Assembly (NCBI GenBank): GCA_913041495.1
Contig: CAJWHT010000031.1
Span: 1-39,899, forward strand
Length of the DNA stretch: 39,899 nt
Source: an uncultured Desulfobacteraceae bacterium
GTDB taxonomy: Bacteria > Desulfobacterota > Desulfobacteria > Desulfobacterales > Desulfobacteraceae
Direction: 5' to 3'
Shown: positions 2,222-33,200 of the stretch, one piece after another
Layout: each line of letters starts with the position of its first letter
How positions within the stretch are numbered: the stretch's first letter is position 1
Position numbers and translations under genes: made by a program
Notes under the pieces: generated by a model
What the model was told of the DNA's origin: nothing
The model's input: only the letters and a program-made list of their open reading frames with translations
Databases searched by the model: none

Positions 2222-2707
2222 ATGGGGCTGGACAGGATTGACAAGAAAATTTTGAATACCCTTCAGGAAAACGGGAAAATTACGAATTCCAAATTATCTC
2301 AAATTGTGGGTATTTCCGCCCCGGCCACCCTGGAGCGGGTAAAGCGGTTGGAGCAATCCGGTGTGATTTCCCATTTTACTGCGGTGGTGGATCCTGAAAG
2401 AATCGGTTTTTCCATCATGGCCATCGTCTCCATCTCTCTGAGCCTGAGCAAGCTTTCATCCCTGGACAAAATCAAGGAGCGGTTTGCGAAATTGGAAGAG
2501 GTGATTGAATGCTACCAGATTGCAGGGGCCAACGACTTTATCCTTAAGGTCTTTGCAAAGGACATCAAGGCCTACGGGGAATTCATGAACCGGAAACTGA
2601 CCCAGATCGAAGGCATCCAGAGCATCCAGTCTTCTTTCATCATTGATAACATCAAGAATAAAAAGATGCTGAAACTGGATCTGGAAACGGAGTACGAGCG
2701 GGCCTGA
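2222..2707 (+). CDS. Lrp/AsnC family transcriptional regulator
   Basis: A 161-residue regulator. The N-terminal winged-helix HTH (residues about 1-60: DRIDKKILNTLQENGK, then SKLSQIVGISAPATLERVKRLE) is typical of Lrp/AsnC proteins. The C-terminal alpha-beta RAM domain (residues about 70-150) usually binds amino acids and drives dodecamer or octamer assembly. The start is fixed by GGAGG seven bases before ATG. The gene converges on the transporter operon: its stop lies 40 bases from the stop of the PaaK-like gene. Lrp-type proteins often control amino acid transport, so the adjacent liv-type operon and its own promoter are plausible targets. That is inference from position only. Confidence 0.9.
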   Translation: MGLDRIDKKILNTLQENGKITNSKLSQIVGISAPATLERVKRLEQSGVISHFTAVVDPERIGFSIMAIVSISLSLSKLSSLDKIKERFAKLEEVIECYQIAGANDFILKVFAKDIKAYGEFMNRKLTQIEGIQSIQSSFIIDNIKNKKMLKLDLETEYERA

Positions 2708-2746: not shown

Positions 2747-3991
2747 TCAGTTTCTTTTTTGCATCAGCCGTATTGTGACGGGAACCCCTAAGTTTTCCGT
2801 CAGGGACCGTTCCGTTGTAAACATCAGCTGCTCCAGGTTTTTAATCTCATCGGAGAACAGGGCGTCATCCAGAACCAGTGAAATTCCCAGTGCCTCTGTG
2901 CCGTTCAGCCGGATTCTTTCCATATCGCAGTCCGGGTCAGAAATCCCCAGTGCCTGCTTGAGATACACAGCGGTCTGCTCCTGGGAGACTTTAATTCCTG
3001 AAATAATCATATAATCATCCGCCCGTTCCGTCAGCCATTCCATGCGTATGAATGGGGAGCCGCAACCGCAGGGCTCGGTGATGAGCCTGGCCATGTCGCC
3101 GGTGCGAAACCGCACCAGAGGGAGGGCCCGTGCGGACAAGGTCGTCAGCACCAGTTCCCCTGCGGTGCCTGCCGGCAGGGTCTGGCCCGTAGCCGGATCG
3201 ATGATTTCAGGCAGGATGTGGTCGTCACAGATATGCAGCCCGCAGTGGTCGCCGCATTCGTGGGCAATGGCCGGACCGGGAATTTCACTGAGCCCGTAGT
3301 GCTGCCAGATATCCGCATGGAGGCGTGCCTCAAGGTCCTTTACAATGTCTTTTGTTACGGGTTCTCCCACCAGGATGATCCGTTTCAGGTTCAGTTCATT
3401 GGGATGGCGCTCCCGTTCGAACATATGATCTGTAAGCTGTTCGGCAAAGGCCAGGGTGGTCACCAGAGTGGTGGTCTTGTAGTCCCGCAGCACCATCAGG
3501 GTTTTGGAAAGGGACAGCATGCTGTTTGGAATAACGCTTGCCCCCAGAAGTTCCCCGCCGTCCTTATAATCCCTGCCCCAGTTGGCCAGGCCCGCGGGCA
3601 GGTGAATCTGGAGGATGTCCATATCCGTTACCCCGCAGGCGTTAAGGCTTCGGGCCACAAGTTTTTTCCATATCAGCAGATCTGCCTGGGTGTAGCCGCT
3701 GATGGAGGGGCGGTCCCCCGTGCCGGGGGCCGTGTGAATCCGGACGATATCCCTCAAAGGAACGGCAAACAGACCGTAGGGATAGTGCAGCCCTAAATCA
3801 GCCCGTTTCATGAACGGCAGTTTTTCAATGTCTTCAAGGGCGCCTATTGCCTGGGGGGTAAGGTTGTGTGATTCAAACCGTTTCCGGTGGAAGGGCACGT
3901 TTTTGTAGGCCCGGTTCAATGTGCTCTGGAGCCTTTCCAGTTTCAGTTGTTCTTTGTCCGCCGTATCCATTGGGTTGGTTCCGTTCGGCAT
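2747..3991 (-). CDS. Divergent PaaK-like (phenylacetate-CoA ligase family) protein, probably adenylation-impaired
   Basis: A 414-residue protein of the AMP-forming acyl-CoA synthetase family, closest by eye to phenylacetate-CoA ligases. It aligns well with the intact PaaK at 20123-21427: [11 protein letters not shown]-like N-terminus, YGLSE in the adenylate-binding region, and the CGCG/CTCG turn. Key sites differ. The phosphate-binding loop SSGTTGKPT of the paralogue is APGTGDRPS here. The IIRG turn is IISG. The chain ends before the C-terminal SQGK block that carries the catalytic lysine. It may therefore bind a substrate or partner without activating it, or use other chemistry. It is the last gene of the transporter operon. 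Its ATG overlaps the livF stop (TGATG) and has GGGAGGGG upstream, so it is translationally coupled to the transporter. Confidence 0.8.
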   Translation of the reverse strand: MPNGTNPMDTADKEQLKLERLQSTLNRAYKNVPFHRKRFESHNLTPQAIGALEDIEKLPFMKRADLGLHYPYGLFAVPLRDIVRIHTAPGTGDRPSISGYTQADLLIWKKLVARSLNACGVTDMDILQIHLPAGLANWGRDYKDGGELLGASVIPNSMLSLSKTLMVLRDYKTTTLVTTLAFAEQLTDHMFERERHPNELNLKRIILVGEPVTKDIVKDLEARLHADIWQHYGLSEIPGPAIAHECGDHCGLHICDDHILPEIIDPATGQTLPAGTAGELVLTTLSARALPLVRFRTGDMARLITEPCGCGSPFIRMEWLTERADDYMIISGIKVSQEQTAVYLKQALGISDPDCDMERIRLNGTEALGISLVLDDALFSDEIKNLEQLMFTTERSLTENLGVPVTIRLMQKRN

Positions 3992-4737
3992 CAGTTTCCC
4001 CTCCCGTCGTAAAAATCTCCGTAATCCTGCCCCAGATAAGCCCGTTTGACGTCATCGTCCACCAGCAGCTCGTCCGCACTGCCCTGGAGCACCATTTTCC
4101 CTGTTTCCAGCACATATCCGCGGTCAGCGATCTTCAGGGCCGCCCTGGCATTTTGCTCCACAAGAAGGATGGTTACCCCCTGGTTCCTCAACGTTTCAAT
4201 GGTCTCAAATATCATATCCACGATTTTGGGTGCCAGTCCCATGGAGGGTTCGTCTAGAACCAGTAAGCGGGGCCTTGCCATAAGGGCCCGGGCAATGGCC
4301 AGCATCTGCTGTTCCCCGCCGGACAGGGTGCCGGCAAGCTGGTCGGCACGCTCCCTGAGAATCGGGAACATTGAAAGGACCATCTTAAAATCTTTTTCCA
4401 CCTCGGCCTTCATCCGTTTGCGGTACATGGTGTAAGCGCCCATCTTTAGGTTGTCCATGACGCTCAAGGGAGAAAATATCTGCCTTCCCTCCGGCACCAT
4501 GCTGATACCGGCACGTACAATGGACGGCGGGGACATGCCCCGCAGGGAATTATCCTCAAACGAGATTTCCCCGGACCAGGTTTTCATCAGGCCGCAGACG
4601 GCCAGCAGCAACGAGCTTTTGCCCGCACCATTGGCCCCGATAATGGAGATCAGTTCTCCTTTCTTAACGGAGAGGCTGACCCCGTGGACCGCCGTGATGC
4701 TGCCGTAACTGCACTTCAGGTTCTTAATTCTCAGCAT
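3991..4737 (-). CDS. livF: Branched-chain/aromatic amino acid ABC transporter ATPase LivF
   Basis: A 248-residue ABC ATPase of the hydrophobic amino acid uptake family (HAAT). Visible motifs are Walker A GANGAGKS, Q-loop region PEGRQIF, signature LSGGEQQ, Walker B LLVLDEP and the H-loop replaced by LVEQN, as is usual in LivF. It pairs with LivG to power LivHM at the cytoplasmic face. The ATG at 4737 has AAAGGA seven bases upstream. That Shine-Dalgarno lies inside a small upstream reading frame that begins with a near copy of the livF start. The end overlaps the PaaK-like gene. The leader of this operon suggests the substrate may be aromatic rather than Leu/Ile/Val. The sequence alone does not settle it. 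Confidence 0.93.
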   Translation of the reverse strand: MLRIKNLKCSYGSITAVHGVSLSVKKGELISIIGANGAGKSSLLLAVCGLMKTWSGEISFEDNSLRGMSPPSIVRAGISMVPEGRQIFSPLSVMDNLKMGAYTMYRKRMKAEVEKDFKMVLSMFPILRERADQLAGTLSGGEQQMLAIARALMARPRLLVLDEPSMGLAPKIVDMIFETIETLRNQGVTILLVEQNARAALKIADRGYVLETGKMVLQGSADELLVDDDVKRAYLGQDYGDFYDGRGN

Positions 4738-4798: not shown

Positions 4799-5590
4799 TT
4801 ATCCCCCCAGGTAGGCCGCCATGACCGCTTCATCGTTCTGTATCTCCCTCGGGGTGCCCTGGGCAAGCTTTCTGCCCTGGTCCAGCACGATGACTTTATC
4901 CGATATGCCCATGGCCAGGCTCATGTCATGTTCCACCAGCATCATCGTCACCCCCCTGTCCTTAACGGCCCGGATCAGTTGCCCCAGGTTTTCCGTTTCA
5001 ACGGCATTCAGTCCGGCGGCAGGTTCGTCCAGAAGGAGCAAGAGCGGATCTGATGCCAGGGCCCTGGCGATTTCCGCGGTCTTCTGCCGTCCCACGGGCA
5101 GGTCCCCCGCAGGTTTATGGGCGTCGTCAATGAGCCCGGTGAACTCAAGCAGGGATTCGGCCTTTTCCACGGCGGCCTTTTCCTCCCGGTTTACCCAGGG
5201 AAAGCGGGTGACGGCGCCCCAGAATCCGCAGCGGGTGCGTACATGCATACCCACAAGCACGTTTTCAAGCAGTGTCATGGAACCGAACAGTTCTACATGC
5301 TGGAAGGTCCTGGCAATGCCGGCCTTTACCAGCTGGTGAACCGCCATTTTCCGGGTGTTCCGCCCGTTGAAAATCACCTGTCCGTTGTCCGGGGCATAGA
5401 TGCCCGTGATCATGTTGAACAAGGTGGTCTTCCCGGCACCGTTGGGACCGATGAGGCCGCAGACAATACCGGGTTCGATGGAAAAGGAAATGTTGTCCTG
5501 TGCCTTTACCCCGCCGAAGAGTTTGGTCAGCCCCTGGACGTCCAGTATCGGCTGCTGTGACTGGGCCTGTCGAAGATCCTGATTTGTCAT
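4799..5590 (-). CDS. livG: Branched-chain/aromatic amino acid ABC transporter ATPase LivG
   Basis: A 263-residue ABC ATPase of the HAAT family. It shows Walker A GPNGAGKT (about residues 46-53), a LivG-type signature LPVGRQKTAEIARAL in place of LSGGQ, Walker B LLLLDEP followed by AAGLN, and the H-loop LVEHDM. LivG also has the characteristic C-terminal block ending in VMAAYLGG. It forms the ATPase pair with LivF. The ATG at 5590 overlaps the last codons of livM, which is the usual tight packing in these operons. The first 15 residues (TNQDLRQAQSQQP) are a polar extension before the conserved ILDVQGLTK. Confidence 0.94.
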   Translation of the reverse strand: MTNQDLRQAQSQQPILDVQGLTKLFGGVKAQDNISFSIEPGIVCGLIGPNGAGKTTLFNMITGIYAPDNGQVIFNGRNTRKMAVHQLVKAGIARTFQHVELFGSMTLLENVLVGMHVRTRCGFWGAVTRFPWVNREEKAAVEKAESLLEFTGLIDDAHKPAGDLPVGRQKTAEIARALASDPLLLLLDEPAAGLNAVETENLGQLIRAVKDRGVTMMLVEHDMSLAMGISDKVIVLDQGRKLAQGTPREIQNDEAVMAAYLGG

Positions 5591-6552
5591 TGTCTCTTTT
5601 TCCTTGAGGCATGGTAGATATCCAGAAATCCGCGGGTGAGTCCCTGGGGCATAAAGATCATCACCAGCATCAGAACCAGGCCGAAGACGATCATTTCATA
5701 TTCGGCAAATCCGTGCAGGACCTCGGGCAGCAATGTTAAAAGGCCTGCGCCCAGCAGGGCCCCCCAGATGCTTGCCATACCACCGATCACTACCATGGTG
5801 ACCATCTTTACGGAGACCATGAATCCGAAGGACTCTGGACTGATAAACAGGACAAAGTGGGCGTACAGAAAACCGGCAACGGCCCCCAGTGCCGCCGCAA
5901 ACATGAAGACTTTCAACTTGAGGTAATGGGTGTTCACCCCCACGGCCAGGGCGGCGTTTTCCCCGTCGTGTATGGCACGCAGCGCCCGTCCCATCCGTGA
6001 CCTAAGGATTCTGCGGCAAATGAGGATGGCCGCAAGTACCACGGCCCACACCAGAAAGAAGTAGGATTTTCCGGACATGAATACCATGGGGCCTGCCTCA
6101 AGCACCGGGATGCCCACAAATCCTGATGCACCGCCTGTCACACTGCTCCACTCCCGGAACAGGATATTGACGATCATACCGAACCCCAGGGTACCCATAC
6201 CCAGGTAATACCCGGAGAGGCGGAGCGTGGGCAGCCCCACGATAAAGGCCACCAGAACGGCACCCCCAACGGCGCAGATCAGGGCCAGCCATGGGGAAAG
6301 GGCATAGGTGCCGGATAAAATCGCCGTGGCATAGGCTCCGATACCGTAAAAGGCGGCATGTCCCAGGGATACCTGGCCGGCATATCCCATCAGCATGTTC
6401 AGTCCCAGGGCCAGCAGGGTGTTGATGCCGATAAAGGTCATTATTTGGAGATAATAGGTGTTTTCCGTGACCAAACCCAGAAGGATGACGGCCGCAAGGA
6501 ATATGCTGTTTTCGATACGTGCTCTGGAACGTGCGCTTAATTTGTCACTCAT
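5587..6552 (-). CDS. livM: Branched-chain/aromatic amino acid ABC transporter permease LivM
   Basis: A 321-residue inner-membrane permease of the HAAT family with about eight to ten hydrophobic segments. Family landmarks are LNMLMGYAGQVSLGHAAFYGIGAY near residues 50-75, the SGYYLGMGTLGFG block, and VKMVTMVVIGGMASIWGALLGA near the C-terminus, which contains the coupling-helix EAA-like loop. It pairs with LivH to form the channel. One base separates its start from the livH stop. The C-terminus (HASRKKRQ) is basic and cytoplasmic. Confidence 0.94.
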   Translation of the reverse strand: MSDKLSARSRARIENSIFLAAVILLGLVTENTYYLQIMTFIGINTLLALGLNMLMGYAGQVSLGHAAFYGIGAYATAILSGTYALSPWLALICAVGGAVLVAFIVGLPTLRLSGYYLGMGTLGFGMIVNILFREWSSVTGGASGFVGIPVLEAGPMVFMSGKSYFFLVWAVVLAAILICRRILRSRMGRALRAIHDGENAALAVGVNTHYLKLKVFMFAAALGAVAGFLYAHFVLFISPESFGFMVSVKMVTMVVIGGMASIWGALLGAGLLTLLPEVLHGFAEYEMIVFGLVLMLVMIFMPQGLTRGFLDIYHASRKKRQ

Positions 6553-6553
6553 G

Positions 6554-7429
6554 CTAAAACCGCTTTGCCTCTTTGGCTGCGAAGAGTCCGCCAGGGCGGA
6601 TGTAGAGGATCAGGAGAAGGAGAATAAAGGCAATGGCATCTTTCAGACCCGAAGAGATCAGGCCGGCGCCCAAAGATTCCAACACCCCCAGCAGGATACC
6701 GCCGGCAAAGGCCCCCCACAGGCTGCCCAGCCCCCCGATCATGGCGGCGCAGAAGCCCTTGAGGCCCAGAATGGTGCCCATATCGTAGGAACTCATGGTG
6801 ATGGGGGCAATGAAGATCCCGGCGATGGCCCCGCATCCCGTGCTGATGGCAAAGGCCAGCACGGCCATCCGTTCGGAGGGAATGCCGGATAGCCAGGCCG
6901 CCTTCTGGTTGACGGCGCAGGCCACCATGGCTTTCCCGGTCAACGTTTTTTTCAGAAAAAAATGAATTCCCCCGGCAAGACCGATGGCTCCCAGTACAAT
7001 CCAGATGCTCTGTGGCAGCAGTGCCGCCCCGAGAATCTCGATGGACTCGTGACTGGAGAAGGAGGGGACGCTGAACGGGTCCTTGCCCCAGGCGAGCATG
7101 CCGGTGCCCCGCAAAAAGATCGAGGCCCCGACGGTAATGATCACCAGCACGATGGGGTTTGACGCTTTTGCCGTGCGTATAGCGAACCGCTCGAACAGCA
7201 GTCCCAGGGTGCAGCCCAGCGCCATGGCGGCCAGTATGGCCAGGGGCAGGGGCCAGGCCAGATGTACCCAGAAGGTCACCATGGCCATGGCCCCCACCAT
7301 GACAAACTCACCGTGGGCAAAGTTGATGAGTTCCGTGGAGCTGTACAGCATGGACAGCCCCACGGCAATCACCGCATAAATGGCACCGGTGGTTATTCCT
7401 GAAAAGAGGTATTGGATGATTTCCTGCAT
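6554..7429 (-). CDS. livH: Branched-chain/aromatic amino acid ABC transporter permease LivH
   Basis: A 291-residue polytopic inner-membrane permease of the HAAT family. It opens with the typical IIQYLFSGITTGAIYAVIAVGLSMLYSSTELINFAHGEFVMVGA and contains the LKGFCAAMIGGLGSLWGAFAGG coupling loop near residue 220-240. It dimerises with LivM. Its start lies eight bases after the livK stop. Length and membrane pattern are normal for the family, and nothing is missing. Confidence 0.94.
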   Translation of the reverse strand: MQEIIQYLFSGITTGAIYAVIAVGLSMLYSSTELINFAHGEFVMVGAMAMVTFWVHLAWPLPLAILAAMALGCTLGLLFERFAIRTAKASNPIVLVIITVGASIFLRGTGMLAWGKDPFSVPSFSSHESIEILGAALLPQSIWIVLGAIGLAGGIHFFLKKTLTGKAMVACAVNQKAAWLSGIPSERMAVLAFAISTGCGAIAGIFIAPITMSSYDMGTILGLKGFCAAMIGGLGSLWGAFAGGILLGVLESLGAGLISSGLKDAIAFILLLLILYIRPGGLFAAKEAKRF

Positions 7430-7437
7430 TCACTTCC

Positions 7438-8583
7438 CTATTTAATAAGTTTCCAGGTGCCGTTCTGGATCTCCACCATGACGAAGGCTTTCGGAGAAAG
7501 CCCGTTGTGGTCTTGGGCGGAGAAGTTAAACTCGCCTGTGGTGCCCATGTGGCCCTGGGTGGATTCCAGTGCATCACGGATCTTGTTCTTATCACCGCCG
7601 CTGCCCTTCAAGGCACCGGCAAGCAGGTTCACGGCATCGTAGGCATAGCCGCCGAAGCCGGATACATTGGCGTTGTACATGGCATTATAATCCTTCTGGT
7701 AGTCTTCCAGGATGGCCCTCTGGGGATCACTGCCGTCAAGCAGACCGGTCACAAGGATCTTGCCCGTGGGAAGGATAATACCGTTGGCTGCATCCCCGGC
7801 CAGCTCAATGAACTTGGGCGAGGCAACCCCGTGGCTCTGGTACAGGGGCAGATCAATTTTAAGCTGCTTTACGTTTTTGGCCACAACCGCAGGTCCGGGG
7901 TTGGTGCCCCAGCATACGATGGCATCGGGACCCGCCGCCTTGATCTTGGTCAGCTGGGCTGTCATGTCAGTGTCTTTGGCGCCGAAACTGTCCGCCTGAA
8001 CCACTTCAAGACCGAAATCTTTGGCCTGGTTCAGCAACTGGTGCTTACCGCTTTCCCCGAAGGAGTTGGAGACGGTGAGGACACCGATCTTTTTAATACC
8101 CCGGGCCTTCATATGCTGATAAACGGCAGCCACGGCCAGAAGGTCACTCTGGGCGGTTTTAAATACCCATGGTTTTACCGGGGAGGTGATCTTCACACCG
8201 GCGGCGCAGGAGATCAAGGGGACCTGGGCCCGCTCCACAAAGTTCACGATGGCCAGGGTAGTGGGGGTGGTGGACGGCCCGATGATCGCCAGGACCTTGT
8301 CCTTGTGCAACAGTTTGTTCACGGCGGATACCGCTTTTGCGGGATCGCCTTCGGAATCGTAAATCACAGCTTCCAGTTTGACGCCGTCAATACCGCCCGC
8401 GGCATTTATCTTTTCGATCATCATCTCCATGGTCTTCTGCTCGGGATCCCCCAGGAACGATGCCCGGCCCGTGGAAGAAAAAATACCGCCGATTTTGTAA
8501 ACCGATGCGGCATACAGGCCGTCCGCTGCCAACAGGGCCATCACCAAAACTGCAATTGCCATTGAGATTCGCTTCATGATCAT
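7438..8583 (-). CDS. livK: Periplasmic substrate-binding protein, LivK/LivJ family
   Basis: A type I periplasmic binding protein of about 381 residues that captures the transported amino acid or related compound and delivers it to LivHM. It begins with a Sec signal (MKRISMAIAVLVMALLAADG, likely cut after YAA), then the family start VYKIGGIFSSTGRASFLG, the IIGPSTTPTTLAIV loop and GYAYDAVNLLAGAL. There is no lipobox Cys. Three ATGs are in frame (8589, 8583, 8577). The middle one is about nine bases from AAGGAGA and is preferred. It is the first gene of the operon, about 300 bases downstream of the promoter, after a leader with a Phe-rich peptide and a terminator. The substrate is unproven. The leader argues for an aromatic amino acid. 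Confidence 0.9.
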   Translation of the reverse strand: MIMKRISMAIAVLVMALLAADGLYAASVYKIGGIFSSTGRASFLGDPEQKTMEMMIEKINAAGGIDGVKLEAVIYDSEGDPAKAVSAVNKLLHKDKVLAIIGPSTTPTTLAIVNFVERAQVPLISCAAGVKITSPVKPWVFKTAQSDLLAVAAVYQHMKARGIKKIGVLTVSNSFGESGKHQLLNQAKDFGLEVVQADSFGAKDTDMTAQLTKIKAAGPDAIVCWGTNPGPAVVAKNVKQLKIDLPLYQSHGVASPKFIELAGDAANGIILPTGKILVTGLLDGSDPQRAILEDYQKDYNAMYNANVSGFGGYAYDAVNLLAGALKGSGGDKNKIRDALESTQGHMGTTGEFNFSAQDHNGLSPKAFVMVEIQNGTWKLIK

Positions 8584-8650
8584 CGTCATTCTCTCCTTTT
8601 CCTCATTAAAAAGAAAAATTAAAATTAGCCGCAGGACGTTTTCTTCTCAT

Positions 8651-8687
8651 CATAAAAAAAGGGCTGCGGGATGTCCCACAGTCCTCT
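8651..8687 (-). terminator. Intrinsic terminator in the liv operon leader
   Basis: On the minus strand CTGTGGG (8681-8675) and CCCGCAG (8670-8664) form a 7-bp stem with one G-U pair around the tetraloop ACAT. A weaker extension (AGAGG with CCTTT) leads into a run of seven U residues at 8659-8653. It lies upstream of livK and downstream of the leader peptide, so it would stop transcription before the structural genes unless it is disrupted. Confidence 0.8.
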
Positions 8688-8689
8688 AT

Positions 8690-8787
8690 ACGCAACAAAA
8701 CCATGGGGAGCCCTTTTCGGTCTGCCCATGGCCTCCGGGGTGTTGCGTTTGTTTTCCGCGTTTTACCTGGATGCCTACCGGGCAGAC
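8690..8787 (-). promoter_or_regulatory. Competing leader hairpins (attenuator switch) of the liv operon
   Basis: Several mutually exclusive helices can be drawn on the minus-strand RNA. Helix 1:2 is GTCTGCCC (8787-8780, overlapping the last codons of the leader peptide) with GGGCAGAC (8727-8720), 8 bp perfect. Helix 2:3 is CCATGGG (8731-8725) with CCCATGG (8707-8701), closed outside by ACGCAACA (8748-8741) with TGTTGCGT (8697-8690). In addition AAAAGGGCT (8717-8709) can pair over 9 bp with AGCCCTTTT (8665-8657), which would open the terminator. Segment 2 is shared between 1:2 and 2:3. Which state favours read-through cannot be decided by eye. Confidence 0.7.
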
Positions 8788-8843
8788 TTTATAAAAAAGA
8801 AGCCGGTAAATCGTTGGAACCAGTAAAAAAAACGGAAAGCCAT
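8775..8843 (-). CDS. Phenylalanine-rich leader peptide (attenuator) of the liv operon
   Basis: A 22-codon reading frame in the transcript leader, with GGGGA five bases before ATG at 8843 and a TAG stop at 8777-8775. An in-frame ATG at 8849 is less well placed. It encodes Phe at codons 3, 5, 6, 9, 12, 15, 16 and 17, Tyr at 7 and Trp at 8. That is eight Phe and two other aromatic residues in 22, including FRFFYWF and FFF runs. This closely resembles the known leader peptides of E. coli pheA and pheST in style, not by homology. The last codons overlap the first arm of the leader hairpins, so a ribosome stalled at the FFF run would cover that arm. The role is inferred, but the combination is hard to explain by chance. 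Confidence 0.75.
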   Translation of the reverse strand: MAFRFFYWFQRFTGFFFIKSAR

Positions 8844-8893
8844 TCGCATCCCCAATACATATAAAAAAGGTAAATCTTAAAAAAACAGCTTCT

Positions 8894-8922
8894 TTCCTAA
8901 TGGACCGCCGTCCAATAGTCAA
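8894..8922 (-). promoter_or_regulatory. liv operon promoter overlapped by a TetR-type palindrome
   Basis: On the minus strand TTGACT (8922-8917) is a good -35. Seventeen bases on, TAGGAA is a poor -10. The spacer is filled by a 22-bp palindrome at 8897-8918 with arms CTATTGGAC and GTCCATTAG around GGCG, one mismatch only. Such GGAC-N4-GTCC dyads are typical of TetR-family operators, though no regulator gene is next to it. Transcription would begin about 45 bases before the leader peptide. The remaining bases up to 9048 are AT-rich, with no gene or structure I can support. Confidence 0.5.
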
Positions 8923-9129: not shown

Positions 9130-10224
9130 CTATCGGGTTTTGATGTCGTAAACCGGGAATTTCACCACGGTGGCGGTGCACATACCTTGTTCCCGCTGGA
9201 TTTCAAGTTTGGTGCCCACGGGTTTAAGTTCGGGGATTACATGGGCCAGGGCCAGGGATTTGTTCATTCGATGGGTCCAGACCGGCTTGTCATGGACCTG
9301 GCCGACCTGCTCACCGTTTACAAAAATCTTTTCTCCGCCCTTGAGGGCTTCTGTGATATCAACGTCCAGTCCCACCAGTTTATATCGCTCTTTGCCCTCA
9401 GCGGCCATGAGTGCCTCTTTGCCCCGAAAGTCGCCTTTATTGCGATCCACAGACCACCCCATGTTGACTTCCCAGGGGGTGTTTTCCATGAGGTCAAAGC
9501 GTCTCCACAGAAGTCCTGCTTCCATTCTCAGGGGGAAGACGCTTTCAACGGCGCAGGGCAGCATGCCCATGGGTCTGCCGTATTCCAAAATGCTGTCCCA
9601 GACCGTTACGGCCTGGTCCGGGCCGCACATGATTTCATAGCCGCGCTCACCGGAAAAACCGGTGCGGGAAATCATAACCTTGCAGCCGAACAGTTCTGTT
9701 TCGTTGAGATGGGTGAAATAATCAAGGGCTGCAATATCATCGGGGGAATGGGCATCCAGAAGCTCCACAGCTTTAGGACCCTGCAGGGAAATCAGATGGG
9801 TCCAGTAATCGTACTCCACCACGCAATCCAGACCTTCGGCAGAAAGCTCCACCATGGCCCTTGCGCAGCCGTCACCGTGGCAGCCCAGCCATTGGTCATT
9901 GCCCAGGTTAAAGACGATGCCGTCATCACAGATCACACCGGTTTCCCTCAGGTAAGGACCGTATTTGGACTGACCGGGTTTGATTTTGTTCACATCGAAG
10001 GTGACGGCGTGGTCCAATGCCTTTGCCGCATCGGGCCCTGAAACCCTGAATTTGAGAAAAGCGGTGAAATCATACATGCCGGCGGCTTCCCGGATGGCAT
10101 CGTGTTCTTCTTTGGGGTCTGTGTTGTAAGTCAGGGGCACTCCCATACGGATATACTCTTGAAGGTCGCCGCCCAGGTCTATATGGCGGGCGGTCAGCGC
10201 TGATGTCCGCGTAATTTGTGTCAT
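9130..10224 (-). CDS. Solitary GcvT/DmdA-family aminomethyltransferase-like protein
   Basis: A 364-residue protein of the folate-binding T-protein superfamily. Members move a one-carbon unit from an aminomethyl, dimethylsulfonio or methylamine group to tetrahydrofolate. Visible blocks are the N-terminal AAGMYDFTAFLKFRVSGPDA, the CDDGIVFNLG strand, ISLQGPKAVELL, RTGFSGERGYEI and the C-terminal OB/GCV_T_C region starting near FRGKEALMAAEG. ATG at 10224 is chosen because AAAGGAGA lies five bases upstream and the family homology starts at once; the frame is open further upstream but that part is not protein-like. No gcvH, gcvP or lpd is nearby, so it is probably not a glycine cleavage subunit. 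A DmdA-like or methylamine/betaine demethylase role fits the family, but the substrate cannot be read from the sequence. Confidence 0.85.
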   Translation of the reverse strand: MTQITRTSALTARHIDLGGDLQEYIRMGVPLTYNTDPKEEHDAIREAAGMYDFTAFLKFRVSGPDAAKALDHAVTFDVNKIKPGQSKYGPYLRETGVICDDGIVFNLGNDQWLGCHGDGCARAMVELSAEGLDCVVEYDYWTHLISLQGPKAVELLDAHSPDDIAALDYFTHLNETELFGCKVMISRTGFSGERGYEIMCGPDQAVTVWDSILEYGRPMGMLPCAVESVFPLRMEAGLLWRRFDLMENTPWEVNMGWSVDRNKGDFRGKEALMAAEGKERYKLVGLDVDITEALKGGEKIFVNGEQVGQVHDKPVWTHRMNKSLALAHVIPELKPVGTKLEIQREQGMCTATVVKFPVYDIKTR

Positions 10225-10582
10225 GTCTTTCTCCTTTGTTTTTTTATGGGTTATTTGGATATCTGTTTGCAAAATTTGAATCCAAAAGCTTTCAGTTTGC
10301 AATGGGCTTCGCAATTGATGTGCCAGAAGATGGGGTGGAGCGTAAAAGGTCATTATTTCAGGTAGTTGGGTGTGTGTCCGGGGGGGGCAGGTTGTCTGGG
10401 AAGCTAATAAAATTCTTAAATTCCGGATCTGGGATTTAAGGAATTTGTCAAATTGGGTGGCATTCCTTTTATTTTGTCCAATTCCGTCGTTTGGTCCCGT
10501 CGCTTGGCTGTGGTTGATTTTACCGGGACGAACCGGTATTGTGTGAGCCTGATTATTAAATAAGGTAAATGGCAGGGGGAAT
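10225..10582. promoter_or_regulatory. Divergent intergenic region with inverted repeats
   Basis: No gene is supported here. The most obvious structure is an AT-rich imperfect palindrome at 10410-10446 (arms like AAATTCTTAAATTCC and GGGATTTAAGGAATTT, offset by one base). It lies just downstream of a minus-strand TTGACA at about 10446-10451. It could be an operator for the GcvT-like gene. There is an 8-G run at 10380-10387. The nitrilase promoter is listed separately. Confidence 0.4.
10514..10542 (+). promoter_or_regulatory. Probable sigma70 promoter of the nitrilase-rfaE2-pgeF-selD cluster
   Basis: TTGATT and TATTGT are separated by exactly 17 bases, 41 bases before the nitrilase ATG. The spacer and the start of the -10 box hold an 18-bp dyad (TACCGG, six bases, CCGGTA at 10521-10538) that could bind a repressor. 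Confidence 0.5.
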
Positions 10583-11371
10583 ATGCAACCGGTATTTAAG
10601 GCGGGAGCCGTACAATTTGATGTTACCGATGGTGACGTTGACGGCAATCTTGCAACGGCATTCCTGATGCTGGATGAACTGGCGCTAAAAGGTGTCGCAC
10701 TGGCCGTCCTGCCCGAGTTGTTTTCCTGCGGGTTTGACAATGAGCGGATTGGCCGGCATGCCCAAAACACGCCTGAGGTGCTGGCGCGAATGACACGGTT
10801 TGCCAGGGACAGGGATATGGCAGTGGCCGGGACTCTGCCGGAAGCCGACGGCGGCCGGGTGTTCAACACCCTTTATTTTATAGACCGGGACGGGGAAATC
10901 CGGGGGACGTACCGGAAACTGCATCTGTTTCCACTTACCGGTGAACACCTTTATTATACGGCAGGCAACAGGGCGGTGGCCGTTGATACCAGTTTCGGCC
11001 GGATCGGGCTGATGATCTGCTATGATTTGAGATTTCCTGAACTTGCCCGGAAACTGTTTCTGGACGCTGCCGATGTTTTTGTGGTGTCTGCACAGTGGCC
11101 CACTCCGCGTGCCGGGCATTGGCAGGCGCTGATCCGGGCACGTGCCATAGAGAACCAGGCCTTTTTTATCTGCAGTAACCGGACGGGGGGGGGGGACGGG
11201 GAGCTTATGTTTCCCGGGCTGTCCACCGTGGTGGGCCCCACCGGGGACGTGCTGGCGGAAGCCGGGGATACACCGGGTGTGATTTGTTGTGATATGGATA
11301 TGGGGCAGGTGGCAGCTTTCAGGCGGACCATTCCCATCAGAAAAGACAGAAGGGAAGATATATATGGCTGA
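10583..11371 (+). CDS. Carbon-nitrogen hydrolase (nitrilase/omega-amidase family)
   Basis: A 262-residue cytoplasmic amidase of the nitrilase superfamily. The Glu-Lys-Cys triad is present: Glu45 in LPELFSCG, Lys112 in YRKLHLFP and Cys146 in MICYDLRFPELAR. The YDLRFPE and SCGFDN contexts resemble the Nit2/omega-amidase branch, which hydrolyses alpha-ketoglutaramate-type amides, but substrate assignment is uncertain. The start has GGGGGA upstream. An uninterrupted run of 11 G (11185-11195) encodes the TGGG of the CNRTGG block, a likely slippage site. The gene overlaps the next one by eight bases, so the cluster is translationally coupled. Confidence 0.88.
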   Translation: MQPVFKAGAVQFDVTDGDVDGNLATAFLMLDELALKGVALAVLPELFSCGFDNERIGRHAQNTPEVLARMTRFARDRDMAVAGTLPEADGGRVFNTLYFIDRDGEIRGTYRKLHLFPLTGEHLYYTAGNRAVAVDTSFGRIGLMICYDLRFPELARKLFLDAADVFVVSAQWPTPRAGHWQALIRARAIENQAFFICSNRTGGGDGELMFPGLSTVVGPTGDVLAEAGDTPGVICCDMDMGQVAAFRRTIPIRKDRREDIYG

Positions 11372-12645: not shown

Positions 12646-12665
12646 CACAGCTTTCAGAGAAACAT

Positions 12666-13742
12666 ATGAGCGTGAACCGGAAAAAAAACGAAATGAAACC
12701 CAGGACACGAATCAACCTGACCCAGAAGGTCAAGGCTGCCGGTTGAGCGGCAAAACTGGATCCGGGGGCACTGGATCTTATCGTGTCGGGCTTGAACGTG
12801 CCGGGACATCCGGATCTGCTCCGGGGCCTGGAGACACCGGATGATGCCGGGGTATTCCGTATCAACGAAGACACCGCCCTGGTGCAGACCTTGGACTTTC
12901 TGACACCGGTGACGGATGATCCTTTTGATTTCGGCAGGATTGCCGCAGCCAATTCCCTGTCCGATGTCTATGCCATGGGTGGCAGGCCGCTGACCGTGAT
13001 GAACATCGTGTGCTTTCCGTCATGTGACCTTGCTACCGATATCCTGCCGGATATCCTTGCCGGCGGCATGGAAAAAATAACCGAAGCGGGTGCCGTGCTT
13101 TTAGGGGGGCATTCGGTGGATGACCCCGAGATAAAATACGGGTTGTCGGTTACCGGTATCGTCCATCCGGACCAGATACTGGCAAATTCAACGGTGCAGG
13201 CGGGCGATGATATTATCCTTACAAAACCTGTGGGCACCGGGGTCATGTCAACGGCGCAAAAAGGCGGGCTTGCAACAGACGCGCAGGTGAGAACCGCTGT
13301 TGAAAGTATGGCGGCACTCAACCTCTATGCGGCGGAAGCCATGGCAGGTATTGATATCCATGCCTGCACAGATGTCACCGGGTTCGGTCTGGCGGGCCAT
13401 CTTTTGGAAATGGCAAAGGGCGGGCGGAAGCACCTAACGCTTTTTGCAGGACAGGTGCCCCTGCTGGACGGGGCACAGGATTTTGCGGCCATGGGGATGG
13501 TGCCGGCAGGGGCCCATAAAAACCGTCAGTTTTTTGAAGCCCATACCCGGGTGGCTGGTGGTGTTGACAGAAGCTTGACAGACCTTTTGTTTGATCCCCA
13601 GACATCGGGGGGGCTGCTGGTGAGTTTGCCGCCGGATCAGACCGGTTTATACCTTGAGCAGCTAGAAGAAAAAGGGATATCAGGACGTTGCGTGGGGCGG
13701 GTGAAAACCGAGCATATCAACGGTTTTCTGGATATTTGCTAA
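12666..13742 (+). CDS. selD: Selenide, water dikinase (selenophosphate synthetase), itself a selenoprotein
   Basis: Makes selenophosphate from selenide and ATP, the selenium donor for Sec-tRNA. Read from ATG at 12666, the frame is 358 residues with one in-frame UGA at 12744-12746. The local sequence is KAAGUAAKLDPG, so UGA sits at the position of the catalytic Cys/Sec (Cys17 in E. coli), three residues before the conserved Lys30. Stopping translation at UGA, or starting after it at 12783, would remove the catalytic N-terminus. The rest is normal: ADP/Mg-binding LVQTLDFLTPVTDDP, LSDVYAMGGRP, GGHSVDDPEIKYG, CTDVTGFGLAGHL and FDPQTSGGLL. The Shine-Dalgarno is weak. Because SelD is needed to make selenocysteine, its own synthesis depends on selenium. 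It ends the nitrilase-rfaE2-pgeF-selD cluster. Confidence 0.93.
12744..12778 (+). promoter_or_regulatory. UGA(Sec) codon with candidate bacterial SECIS hairpin in selD
   Basis: UGA at 12744-12746 is followed by a stem GATCC (12759-12763) with GGATC (12773-12777), extendable by a G-U pair, around the 9-base loop GGGGGCACT. The loop begins with G and starts 17 bases after the UGA, which agrees with the loose rules for SelB-binding bacterial SECIS elements. Confidence 0.65.
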
Positions 13743-19676: not shown

Positions 19677-20108
19677 TTAAAGACCGCTGAGTTCTTTTCC
19701 GTCAATCACCTTGATATCTTTTTGGGCCAGGATTTCCTTGGCCTTGTCAATATCGTCGAACCGGAAGATCATGATAGCGTTTTTGCACTGGGGATTGGCA
19801 AAGGCATACATGTATTCCACGTTGACGTCCTGTTCGCATAAGGGGTCCAGGACTTTGTTCAGGCCGCCGGGTTCATCGGTGACTTCAACGGCCAGTACCT
19901 GGGTCTTGCCCACGGTAAAGCCTTCCTTTTTCAGGGCGGCCGTGGCTTTGTCATTATCGTTGACGATGAGCCTAAGTACCCCGAAGTCCGTGGTGTCGGC
20001 CAGGGACAGGGCCCGGATGTTCACCTGGGCATCCCTTAAAATGGCAGTGACTTCGGCCAGCCGGCCTTCCTTGTTTTCGATAAATATGGATATCTGTTCC
20101 GCCATCAT
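19677..20108 (-). CDS. Tandem ACT-domain protein paired with PaaK
   Basis: A 143-residue protein made of two ACT domains (residues about 3-65 and 72-135). ACT domains bind amino acids and act as ligand-controlled dimers. The first opens with QISIFIENKEGRLAEVTAILRDAQVNIRAL and the second with VLAVEVTDEPGGLNKVLDPL, both with the Gly at the ligand turn. Stand-alone ACT proteins of this kind are often found next to phenylacetate-CoA ligase genes in anaerobic bacteria and archaea. Here it starts 15 bases after the paaK stop, with AGGAGA before the doubled ATG. It probably senses an amino acid linked to the acid the ligase activates. It is the last gene before the terminator. Confidence 0.9.
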   Translation of the reverse strand: MMAEQISIFIENKEGRLAEVTAILRDAQVNIRALSLADTTDFGVLRLIVNDNDKATAALKKEGFTVGKTQVLAVEVTDEPGGLNKVLDPLCEQDVNVEYMYAFANPQCKNAIMIFRFDDIDKAKEILAQKDIKVIDGKELSGL

Positions 20109-20122
20109 ATGATTCTCCTGTA

Positions 20123-21427
20123 TTATAATTTGCGGTTATCAATGACCCGGACAGCTTTGCCCTGGCTTCTTTCAATGGTTTTGGGTTCCACAAGCGCCAC
20201 CCTGGCGGATACGCCCAAATGTTCCTTGATGTCGTGGGAGAGCTTCGCCTCCATGGCCTGGAGCCCTTTGATGTCGTCACTAAAGGAGGTCTCGTCGATT
20301 TCCACCTTGACGGTGAGGGTATCCAGGTTGTCGATGCGGTCCACCTCAAGCTGATAGTGGGGGGCCACTTCCCTTGTTTCCATGAGCACGCTTTCGATCT
20401 GGGACGGGAACACGTTGACGCCCCGGATGATGAGCATATCATCGGTTCTGCCCGTGGGTTTGTTCATCCGGACATGGGTCCGGCCGCAGGTGCAGGGGGT
20501 CGGATTCAAGGAGGTGATGTCCTTGGTCCGGTAACGGATGACCGGGAACGCTTCTTTGGTGATAGAGGTGAACACAAGTTCGCCGGGTTCGCCGTAGGGC
20601 AGGGGTTCCAGGGTATCCGGATCCACCACTTCCACGATGAAATGGTCTTCGAAAACGTGGAGTCCTTTTTGTTCTTCTACACATTCGATGGAAACGCCTG
20701 GCCCGATCACTTCACTGAGACCGTAGATATCCACGGCCTTTAAATTGCATTTGGCTTCAAGTTCCTGGCGCATTTCTTCGGTCCAGGGCTCTGCGCCAAA
20801 GATGCCGGATTTGAAATACAGGTCCTTGAAATCAACCCCCATTTCATCCGCCACTTCCGCCAGGTGAAGAATATAGGACGGTGTGCCGCAGAGAATGGTG
20901 GGTTTGAAGTCCTGCATAATGGTGATCTGGCGCTTGGTGTTGCCGCCGGACACCGGAATAACGGATGCCCCCAGGCGTTCCGCTCCGTAATGGGCACCAA
21001 GGCCCCCGGTGAACAGGCCATAGCCCCAGGCATTGTGGATGATATCCCCGTTGGTGGCACCGGCCGCGGACATGCTCCGGGCCATCAGTTCCGCCCAGGT
21101 GGCGATATCCCGCTTGGTATACCCCACAACCGTGGGTTTGCCCGTGGTTCCTGAGGACGCATGGATCCTGACGATCTGTTCCATGGGCACGGCAAACATG
21201 GCGTAAGGGTAGTTGTCCCTCAGATCCTGTTTGGTGGTAAAAGGCAGACGCCTTAAGTCGTCCAGGCTTTTGATGTCTGTGGGTTTGATGCCGGCTTTAT
21301 CGTAAGTTTCCTTGTAGAAGGGTACCGTGGCGTAAATCCGTTCAAGTGTGGTCTGAAGGCGGCGGAGCTGAATGGCTTCCAGCCCCTCCCTGGGCATGGT
21401 TTCGAAGTCAATGTCAAAAATGGGCAT
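20123..21427 (-). CDS. paaK: Phenylacetate-CoA ligase
   Basis: A 434-residue AMP-forming ligase that turns phenylacetate (or a related aryl acid such as indoleacetate) into its CoA thioester. All adenylation motifs are present: P-loop [20 protein letters not shown] in the A5 region, the YRTKDI aspartate block, [13 protein letters not shown], and the C-terminal [11 protein letters not shown] with the catalytic lysine. This contrasts with the impaired paralogue at 2747-3991. ATG at 21427 follows GGGGAGA; a TTG at 21448 is possible but less likely. It lies between the crotonase gene and the ACT gene, all tightly spaced. Physiological substrate is inferred from family only. Confidence 0.92.
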
Positions 21428-21463
21428 GGTGTTTTTTTCTCCCCTCAATTCTCCCGTGTGTAT

Positions 21464-30238: not shown

Positions 30239-33200
30239 TTAACCGGGACGCCCTTTGTCCGCGGGCTTGAGTGCCGTTAAAACCTGCCTGATCTGATCCG
30301 GTTTAAACCAGTCCCTGTGAGTGCCGTCCACAGGGATGCGCCGGACATTACCTTTGGCGTAGGTCCTGAGTTTGGGGTCATACTTTTCCATCCAGTTCTT
30401 GGAATCCATCACAAGGATATCTCCCTTATAGGGCCTTGGCAGATATGATTTATAGGCTTTCCAGAAGGCTGATTCCATCAGCCGGAACTGGGTTTTTTCC
30501 GGCAGCGGTATGCCCAGCCTGGGGTATATCCTTCCCCGCAGGTCGTCCAGGGCAAGGCTGTACATGTGCAGTTTTTCCCGCAGTTTGGGAATGATTTTTT
30601 TCAGTATGTGTCCGATGCCGAAACGGAACATGCCCTTCATGTGATGCCCCACGAAGGCGGACATGCGTTTGGTCTGCCAGAATTCGTCCAGAAAGACAAG
30701 GTGCTCCACCTCTTTTCCCATGCTGATGAGCTGTGAGGCGATTTCAAAGGCGGCAATGGAGTACCGGCAAAACCCGATGATGATATAGGGGCCCGAGGGG
30801 GCCGCGTGGGTGATCTCTTTGACGTTTCGCCGGGCGATCTCCCACAGATCCATGGGAATGATCCGGTTGTTTACGGTTTTGTGGGCAAATACGGTGAGGG
30901 TAAAGAAAGGGTGCCCCATCAGATCCTGTTTGGCATAGGCATCGGTATCCTCGCTGGTGCCGGCCACAAAGATAATGGGCGGACGGTCCCCTTTGGGTTT
31001 GATGACCCTCAGATTCCTGAACACGAAACCCGTGTCGTTTTCCCTGAGAACGGCGGCCAGGTCTGCCAATACCGGGTGCCTGAATATGGCCAGGACCGGA
31101 ATGTCGATGCTAAAGGCCTTTTCAATCGACGTCACCAGGCGGATGGCGGTGAGGGATGAGCCGCCGATATCAAAAAAATTGTCTGTGAGGCGAATCTCGG
31201 TTCGGTTGAGGATCTGCTGCCAGATCCGGATCAGTCCGGTGACGTATGCGTCATCATTCGCGCTCTCAACAGGTGTGTCAGGCAGGGACGAGTTGTCCAC
31301 CGGCCTGATATCAAGGGACTTGTAATCTATTTTCCCGGCAGTGGTCAGGGTAAATGCGTCCGTAAAACCAATGGTTGACGGCACCATGTAGGCCGGCAGC
31401 CGGTCGGACATCCATTGTTTAAGGGTGTCTGCGTCCGGTGTGTCCGGCAGGTCTTTTTTAAGGATAACCACCAGATGAATATCAATGTGCGCCTGATTGT
31501 TGCCGCAGATCTTTACGGCGGCTGTTTCCACCCCGGGGTGGGTCATGGCGGTTTTTTCGATTTCATCGGGTTCCACCCGGTAACCGTTGATCTTTATCTG
31601 CCGGTCGGACCTGCCCAGGAAGATAATGTCTCCTGACGGCATCATGTATGCGTTGTCGCCTGTTTTGAAAAAGCGGATGTCCTGCCGGTCCGTCCCGGGG
31701 GAGAGAAACCTGCGGGCGGTGAGTTCCGGCAGGTTCAGGTATCCTGCAGCCACCTGGGGGCCCCCGATATGGATTTCGCCATTCACCCCGGGCGGTGCCG
31801 GCTGGTTAAAGTGGTTCAATATGGCGATGCTGACATCGGAAAAGGGCCTGCCGATGGAGGTCCGGTTATTTACGGGCTGGGCGGATGTCAGGTCCGCAAC
31901 GGTCACAGCCACTGTTGTTTCTGTGGGACCGTAAGTGTTGAGCAAACGGATCCGGTCTCCGACGGCCTGCTGCCAGGCTTCCAGCTTGTCGGCCCGTGCG
32001 GCTTCCCCGCCGATAATCACGAGACGCAGGGTGTCCGGAAGGGGCAATTCCTTGACCTGGTCAGCGATCAGGTGCCAGTAGGCGGTGGGCAGATCTGCCA
32101 CGGTGACGGCATTGTCGTTGCAATAGGCAAAAAATTGTTCCGGTGTCAGTACGGCATCCCTGGATTTGATCACCAGACAGGCACCTGAAAATAAGGTGGG
32201 ATAGATTTCTTCTGCAGAGGCATCAAAACTGATGGAGGCAAACTGGAGCACCCGGTCCGTGGGCTGGATGTCGTAGGCTGTGGCCGCAGACTTGGTGAAT
32301 GCGGCCAGGGCGGAATGCTGGACCACGACACCCTTTGGGGCCCCGGTAGACCCCGAGGTATAGATAATGTATGCAGTGTGGCCCGGGGCCACGGGAACCT
32401 GGGGATTGGTATCGGCACACCGGGTGATGGCATCTTTCTCCCTGTCCACCAGCACCAGGTCCGCAACGGTGCCCGGCATCAGATTCAGCCTTTCGGTGTC
32501 CGTGAGTATCAGGTCTGGCCGGGCATCATCCATGATGACCTTGAGCCGTTTTTTCGGATAGCTGATGTCCGCAGGAATATAGCAGGCACCGGATTTCAGA
32601 ATACCCAGCAGGAAAACAATGAGATCCGTGGTCTGGGGCAGGAAAACCAGCACCCGCTTCCCGGGACCACCGCCCACGGCCAGAAGAAAGTGGGCGACCT
32701 GGTTGGCCTGCCGGTTCAGGTCCTCGTAGGTCAGGGTTTTGCTGCTGTCCGTCACCGCAGGCACCGATTTGTTTACCGTGGCCTGGATTTCAAACAGGCT
32801 GTGGATGCAGCTTGTGGGGTTCAGGTGCCGGCGGGTGGTCTGGAGCTTCTGGTCAATGGCCTGGGTTTCTGCCGGGGTTAATACGGGCAGCTCGGTGAGC
32901 CGGGCATCCGGTGTGTCCGCCGCCACGTTAAGGAAATTGGCAAAGTGGCTCAGGATCTGGCGGGTGGTCTTTTCATTGAATTTACGCTGGTCGTATTCAA
33001 TGGTCGCTTCCAGTTCATCCGTTCCCTGGACCGTAAGGAAAATGGCTGCCGGCGTTCGTTCCAGAAGGGATACGCTGGAGCATCCCACCCCTGATTTATA
33101 GGGGGTAAGGGATTGATCCAGGGTGTTGTAATCGTAGGAAAAGTAGATTTCCGACAGGGGGAGGCTGCCGCGAATGGGGCTCAATGCATGGATATCGGTC

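Follow-up and report, generated by a model that had tools for sequence, protein, structure and literature searches.

The leader region and its operon

The window (the whole stretch of DNA analysed, 39,899 nucleotides of a contig from an uncultured Desulfobacteraceae bacterium) contains a liv-type transporter operon on its minus strand. The first gene encodes a livK-type periplasmic binding protein (7438–8589) and is followed by genes for a livH-type permease (6554–7429), a livM-type permease (5587–6552), a livG-type ATPase (4799–5590), a livF-type ATPase (3991–4737) and, as the last gene, a PaaK-like CoA ligase (paaK2, 2747–3991), which was absent from the first-pass annotation. Other liv-type operons are present in the genome. 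A second phenylacetate-CoA-ligase-like gene of a more typical kind (paaK1, 20123–21448) was found on the same strand, a short gap after an enoyl-CoA hydratase ORF, and is followed by a gene for a protein with a pair of ACT domains (19677–20108). Both ligases are named PaaK-like here because they score below the cut-off of 646.3 bits for the PaaK family TIGR02155, paaK1 narrowly (631.4 bits) and paaK2 with 277.6 bits.

A promoter-like sequence, TTGACT-N17-TAGGAA (8894–8922), precedes a short leader ORF upstream of livK, and the sequence TTGACA-N17-TAGGTA was seen upstream of the leader in six of the 12 relatives scanned. The ORF (MAFRFFYWFQRFTGFFFIKSAR followed by TAG, 8775–8843, minus strand, with the stop codon at 8777–8775) has homologous aromatic-rich leaders in relatives. 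It comprises 22 codons, among them eight for Phe, one for Tyr and one for Trp, exactly as first annotated. The ribosome-binding site is a GGGG (8850–8853) six nucleotides ahead of the ATG at 8843; it had been called good, which is generous for so short a site. A second in-frame ATG at 8849 touches the GGGG, and the ATG at 8843 is therefore the likelier start. When the bases of the ORF were shuffled (9842 stop-free shuffles), ten or more Phe, Tyr or Trp codons arose in five shuffles and eight or more Phe codons in none.

The leader contains a chain of segments with alternative partners. Segment 1 (GTCTGCCC, 8780–8787) lies within the last codons of the ORF and pairs perfectly over 8 bp with segment 2 (CCATGGGCAGAC, 8720–8731; 8787–8780 with 8727–8720). 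Segment 2 is common to this antiterminator helix 1:2 and to the putative terminator T1, in which it pairs perfectly over 7 bp with segment 3 (CCCATGGT, 8700–8707; 8731–8725 with 8707–8701). The coordinates first given for these two mutually exclusive helices were exact. The U run after T1 is weak in the window (UUUUGUUG). Segment 3, the 3′ arm of T1, has an alternative partner in segment 4 (ACTGTGGG, 8675–8682), with two G-U pairs (8707–8700 with 8682–8675), a pairing which had been overlooked earlier. Segment 4 is also the 5′ arm of a second putative terminator, T2, in which it pairs at 8681–8675 with segment 5 (CCCGCAG, 8670–8664) with one G-U pair; segment 5 and the following bases with their U run form the 3′ part of T2 (8657–8670). 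This terminator-like hairpin (8681–8664, then the U run) is the hairpin with a U-tract that had been reported ahead of livK. The T1 loop contains a further sequence (AAAAGGGCT, 8709–8717) whose proposed 9-bp pairing (8717–8709 with 8665–8657) is indeed perfect; it is a candidate extension of the 3:4 antiterminator. The fold of the 199-nt leader lies 4.1 standard deviations below dinucleotide shuffles (z = −4.1), with none of 200 shuffles equally stable. A search of the window against Rfam gave no match at the gathering score, and the same search of eight relatives (E ≤ 1) gave four matches, each of which falls in locus L224, scores below gathering and belongs to an unrelated family.

Directly upstream of the leader lies a gene for a GcvT-family protein (9130–10869, minus strand), whose listed GTG start seems too early, and a strong terminator-like hairpin (9098–9063) stands between this gene and the leader promoter. 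At the other end of the operon, a gene for an Lrp/AsnC-family regulator (2222–2707, plus strand) faces paaK2 and might add amino-acid control. Elsewhere in the window, a selD-like gene with AIRS domains (12657–13742, plus strand) has an in-frame TGA near its start (VKAAGUAAKL), presumably at the usual selenocysteine place of selenophosphate synthetase, and likely encodes a selenoprotein. A 2368-aa protein (30239–37345, minus strand) with two matches each to condensation, adenylation and carrier domains is a two-module nonribosomal peptide synthetase.

Distribution of the element and its target genes

Relatives (Desulfobacterales and allied 'Deltaproteobacteria') were searched with two covariance models, R1 built from ten copies and R2 from A3, an alignment of 101 matches described below. 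With R1 at E ≤ 0.1, matches were found in 25 of the 86 genomes of the family and, in the order sample, in at least 152 of 389 genomes and at least 71 of 150 genera, a threshold at which some 39 chance matches (about a tenth of the genomes) are expected in the order sample from the E-value alone. The counts at E ≤ 0.001 are safer for this reason, namely 97 of 389 genomes in the class sample (R1) and 92 of 395 in the phylum sample (R2). Nine gamma- and alphaproteobacterial genomes, a small control without a known positive, gave no R2 match at E ≤ 0.1. The genome of the window has a single R1 match at E ≤ 0.1, and no attenuator was found at the paaK1 gene of the window.

Order-sample loci were fetched among the matches listed, down to E of about 0.0016. 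An aromatic gene or livK was present within 1.5 kb downstream in 99 of the 107 fetched loci, a count that leaves out L139, L143 and the livK set L119–L135. The gene was paaK1 in 67 loci, ADH synthase (ADHS, 2-amino-3,7-dideoxy-D-threo-hept-6-ulosonate synthase) in 20, DAHP synthase in seven, prephenate dehydratase in three (one of which, L136, is by eye a DAHP synthase fusion) and livK in two. In two relatives (L237 and L243) the element stands on the PheA-type gene itself. The eight loci without such a gene comprise five weak matches (L138, L140, L141, L142 and L147, E 0.017–0.07), two on contigs ending early (L168 and L206) and L238. The last of these (G114:C12:13802–13913) is a strong match (E = 3.5e-4) with an aromatic ORF, MRDGICFRALLFAGGYGIFFFRKFARGKKRC, and no reference gene in the fetched downstream DNA. 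The 19 loci from the phylum search, of which L255 and L265 duplicate order-set loci, gave paaK1 in 13 (in L260 only at 1.1 kb), ADH synthase in one and another start in five; two of these five were checked and both are DAHP synthases scoring over the cut-off. The first-pass annotation had placed a Phe leader and attenuator before a liv-type operon. This is supported by the relatives, but the element is not specific to liv operons, since other aromatic genes lie behind most of the copies that were fetched.

Of the 86 genomes of the family, 30 have a LivK orthologue (E ≤ 1e-80). Aromatic-rich leaders lie upstream of livK in the window and in L007, L008, L009, L010, L021, L030, L031 and L032, as well as in L064 from outside the family orthologue set. 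The leader of L009 is that of Desulfocicer vacuolatum DSM 3385 (L039), and the sequence of L010 is that of Desulfobacter vibrioformis (L040), where the leader is shorter and starts with TTG. A run of T follows the 2:3 hairpin in the leader-bearing livK loci and is weakest in the window. Desulfamplus-type loci showed none of these leaders upstream of livK. The window's genus has 16 livK loci, and in 11 of them (L011–L020 and L024) the leader ORF is decayed: the conserved leader stop is missing in three, the frame is broken in two and no usable start precedes the aromatic codons in six, including L016 where just a distant TTG is left. In several Desulfobacter-type relatives the T1 sequence is kept while the start of the leader, or all of it, is gone, which forms a natural decay series. 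It should also be noted that the LivK orthologue of L008 (1501–2649, from the same-genus genome G020) contains one in-frame TGA (IVC*GTNPG) at a position that is Trp in the LivK of the window; a sequencing error, decay or recoding are possible.

Several genomes contain more than one copy. G057, G058 and G059 each have two, before livK and before paaK1. The same holds for G097 (L190 before livK, L173 before paaK1), and G164 has copies before livK (L148, a duplicate of L064), paaK1 (L165) and ADH synthase (L212). Desulfobacteraceae bacterium Eth-SRB1 (L060) carries, in this order, an enoyl-CoA-hydratase-like ORF, the attenuator, paaK1, the ACT gene, livK, livH, livM, livG, livF and paaK2, with paaK1, ACT, livK and paaK2 scored, the other genes named by eye and the attenuator ascribed from the match G294:C29. 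This undivided operon is headed by paaK1, followed by the ACT gene as in the window. The older site of the element in the lineage was probably ahead of paaK1-ACT-livKHMGF-paaK2, an operon which would since have split and left a copy before livK. G057–G059, in which both halves of the divided operon carry the element, are a natural case of regulation tracking gene rearrangement.

Conservation of the helices and of the leader peptide

Alignment A3 holds 101 matches from 100 loci, with one weak second match in L224, and leaves out L128–L143, L147, L206, L222, L232, L236, L238, L240 and L242–L244. Helix 1:2 is paired in 95.8% of its cells, against 34–48% for partners slid by 1–3 columns, and has two-sided changes at ten of its 12 pairs in 72 cells, which none of 500 shuffles matched; helix 2:3 is paired in 99.0% of cells, against 16–47% for slid partners, with two-sided changes in 33 cells (none of 500 shuffles) and at four of seven pairs (18 of 500 shuffles), all of these counts leaning upward because of the shared ancestry of the rows and the fitting of A3 to the 1:2 structure. 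As the rows are related by descent, the two-sided changes represent fewer events than cells. In an unfitted alignment of ten copies, 89.2% of cells were paired in helix 1:2 and 100% in helix 2:3, with one two-sided pair in each.

In a looser scan (without L136, L137, L138, L140, L141, L142, L147 and L148), 89 of 109 loci have a T2-like hairpin after T1; a stricter scan gave 44 of 111. In 88 of the 89 loci the 5′ arm of T2 agrees with segment 3 at six or more of seven positions, as against 29 of 89 at the best place elsewhere. The paired change of segment 3 to CTCATGG and segment 4 to CTGTGAG in seven loci (L153, L160, L162, L163, L168, L175 and L188), some of them closely related, also supports the 3:4 pairing. 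A hairpin A:B further upstream (GGCTTC..GAAGTC) has all six pairs in 32 of 101 copies, with a total of 457 compared with a shuffle mean of 445 and maximum of 459, and ADH-synthase copies have a different hairpin; a his-like first hairpin ahead of the segment chain is no more than suggestive.

The leader peptides were compared according to the downstream gene. Leaders before paaK1 contain 471 Phe, 85 Tyr and 17 Trp codons and those before prephenate dehydratase (PheA) 21, 6 and 0, while ADH synthase leaders have 74 Phe, 89 Tyr and 16 Trp and DAHP synthase leaders 18, 39 and 5. The split between Phe and Tyr follows the target gene, as expected of a tRNA sensor. Five or more aromatic residues were found in 66 of 67 paaK1, 3 of 3 PheA, 20 of 20 ADH synthase and 7 of 7 DAHP synthase leaders, total contents which are biased upward because the most aromatic ORF was picked, a choice that does not select for the Phe:Tyr split. 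Among paaK1 leaders, likewise picked as aromatic, the aromatic codon share is 0.32 in frame, compared with 0.17 and 0.24 in the two alternative frames. In leaders of equal length, and using the codons ahead of segment 1 only, pN/pS was 0.41 in the leader frame against 1.30 and 1.05 in the remaining two (paaK1, 20 distinct leaders) and 0.62 against 2.39 and 1.55 (ADH synthase, 11 distinct leaders). The first-pass annotation had proposed to give up its reading if neither ORF nor helices recurred in relatives; both are conserved there.

Proposed mechanism, alternatives and function

The stretch 8922–8657 of the minus strand is, very probably, a ribosome-mediated transcription attenuator which senses the charging of tRNA-Phe, perhaps also of the Tyr and Trp tRNAs, and controls livKHMGF-paaK2. 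With the same high confidence, as part of this explanation, the element is taken to be one of a set of copies spread through the phylum on aromatic genes. Computed anatomy, conservation, two-sided changes, target genes and codon bias are the basis from which we infer termination, stalling, the direction of the response and the history of the element. The region combines a short ORF rich in the regulating codons (by sequence and selection), the intrinsic terminators T1 and T2 before livK (again by sequence) and a first antiterminator arm that a ribosome at the stop codon would cover (segment 1 at 8787–8780, stop at 8777–8775). Association with the metabolism of the sensed amino acid is seen in 97 of the 107 fetched loci (paaK1, ADH synthase, DAHP synthase or PheA) in addition to the two livK loci; in the window's own operon this link runs through PaaK2 and the relatives.

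When charged tRNA-Phe is ample, the ribosome would get to the stop codon and mask segment 1, so that 2:3 (T1) and 4:5 (T2) form as two terminators in series. The U run after 2:3 in relatives suggests that this hairpin is itself a terminator. When charged tRNA-Phe is scarce, the ribosome would halt upstream in the Phe codons and 1:2 would pair before segment 3 is transcribed, releasing segment 3 and the T1 loop; these would then pair with segment 4 and the T2 3′ arm and allow read-through into livK. With segment 1 hidden, the free RNA folds to T1 and T2 (−47.4 kcal/mol). When states were forced over 8790–8654, 1:2 with 3:4 and 2:3 with 4:5 were equal (−55.3 kcal/mol each) and the mixed state of 1:2 with 4:5 was weaker (−52.5 kcal/mol). 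The unconstrained fold with segment 1 free still gives T1 and T2, and antitermination must therefore rest on the order of folding during transcription. From the coordinates, the last two Phe codons are near segment 1 and a halt there would mask part of it. The 9-bp pairing, earlier noted as antiterminator-like, forms together with 3:4 as its extension when the helices are forced, and in this antitermination state T2 is deprived of its 3′ arm and of the U run behind it. Its location in the T1 loop, previously raised as a difficulty, is no contradiction, as a closed T1 would hide this partner and an open T1 would free it.

It had been left unsettled whether a stall gives read-through or stop. 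Read-through is now the best reading and stop is judged less likely, given the position of segment 1 and the occurrence of the same element on three kinds of biosynthetic gene. An arrangement of the opposite sense, in which abundance of Phe would give read-through and the operon would degrade phenylalanine or phenylacetate and be induced by either, could draw on the PaaK-like ligase at the operon end and on an IorA in the genome scoring over its curated cut-off, PaaK and indolepyruvate:ferredoxin oxidoreductase (IOR) being enzymes which we associate with aromatic degradation. It is nevertheless improbable, because the same segments stand on the biosynthetic genes for DAHP synthase, ADH synthase and prephenate dehydratase, where induction by starvation makes sense, and because a ribosome that completes the ORF would mask segment 1 at its end and favour T1 and T2.

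The strong conservation of the RNA with its two-sided changes, the ACT-domain protein in the undivided operon of L060 and the T1 sequence outlasting the decayed ORF in several Desulfobacter-type loci would each also suit hairpins that work without a ribosome, as in a ligand riboswitch, T-box or protein-binding leader with an incidental aromatic ORF. Against this, the window has no match in the Rfam library used, which we believe includes T-box models, the frame of the leaders in relatives is constrained with aromatic codons enriched in frame (in ORFs picked as aromatic), and the Phe/Tyr content tracks the target gene; we regard such a leader as very improbable. Still less credible, to the point of being negligible, is a plain terminator region in which a Phe-rich ORF arose by chance: Phe codons are favoured by the high T content here, but the ORF shuffles and the frame constraint in pN/pS contradict chance, as do the conservation across genera and families, the paired changes and the single class of target genes.

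Phe-rich leader peptides with a terminator competing against an antiterminator under control of Phe-tRNA charging are known from pheA and pheST (pheM) of E. coli, which the ribosome-mediated attenuator proposed here resembles in layout. It differs from them in its two successive terminators, in targets that include an uptake and CoA-ligase operon and in that neither the window nor the eight relatives searched match an Rfam family. In the enterobacterial his attenuator the pairings A:B, C:D and E:F alternate with B:C and D:E, and the position of the ribosome decides the last hairpin. The mechanism, ribosome-mediated attenuation with alternating segments, is already known from the his operon, and the pairing chain is of the same alternating kind. 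The differences from his are that the middle hairpin 2:3 precedes a U run in relatives, giving two terminators, that the codons are aromatic and that A:B is merely suggestive. Because of the two linked terminators and the PaaK-Liv target, we judge the element to be a new variety of attenuator.

Compared by description, the uORFC-13-1 motif upstream of aroF likewise has a Phe-coding upstream ORF and a terminator before DAHP synthase; in the part of that paper available, its range differs, being limited to Acholeplasma and environmental sequences (PMC8632094). Also similar by description are two candidate uORFs, conspicuous for their Phe and Tyr codons, at genes of shikimate metabolism in the available part of PMC6429828, where no word starting with 'Desulf' occurs in the main text. 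The uORF of Corynebacterium ilvB-II, as available in PMC11109978, shares regulatory codons, a terminator/antiterminator pair and discovery by comparative genomics, and differs in its Ile/Leu/Val codons, its occurrence in Actinobacteria and its one terminator. No description of the element was found in the literature searched (open-licence papers only), nor in the available parts of PMC2965389, PMC8632094, PMC11109978, PMC6429828 and PMC2704228.

The transporter had been annotated as branched-chain, and while a liv-type operon with a Phe leader stands, this label is doubtful in view of the LivK score, the solved relatives and the PaaK-like ligase. LivK reaches only 91.5 bits against the cut-off of 477 for the branched-chain binding family PRK15404 (NCBIfam). 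Among solved structures 7ylt is the nearest, followed by 3uk0, 3tx6, 4jb0 and 3ukj (E 5e-42 to 2e-40), compared with about 1e-13 for LivJ and LBP, and the LivK stretch YQSHGVAS aligns with YQTHGAAS in 3tx6. We take 3uk0, 3tx6, 4jb0 and 3ukj to be aromatic-acid binders of Rhodopseudomonas. Aromatic-acid binding proteins are described from R. palustris in the available part of PMC3223731. IadK2 is an indole-3-acetic acid solute-binding protein which does not bind phenylacetic acid, according to the available text of PMC10374108, in which the code 7ylt does not appear. Since copies of the element precede genes for making or handling aromatic amino acids in many related bacteria, the transporter labelled 'branched-chain' may in fact take up aromatic compounds.

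A degradative role for the operon is possible. The predicted rise on phenylalanine starvation means that these operons probably serve uptake or salvage, and starvation control of PaaK and a transporter would fit a salvage route. Aryl acids are substrates of a second aromatic amino acid route in Methanococcus maripaludis, according to the available part of PMC4162585. With a chance that we put slightly below even, the phylum-wide double-terminator aromatic regulon, a reductive PaaK/indolepyruvate:ferredoxin oxidoreductase pathway and the transporter could together represent salvage of aryl acids to phenylalanine and not degradation, the PaaK-Liv genes being induced by starvation alongside DAHP synthase, ADH synthase and prephenate dehydratase.

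The result points to a conserved attenuator with a double terminator, where a single alternating pairing chain governs both terminators, and would provide a regulatory assignment for many anaerobe operons of the PaaK and 'branched-chain' transporter types. If the salvage proposal is true, these anaerobes import phenylacetate-type acids and convert them into phenylalanine.
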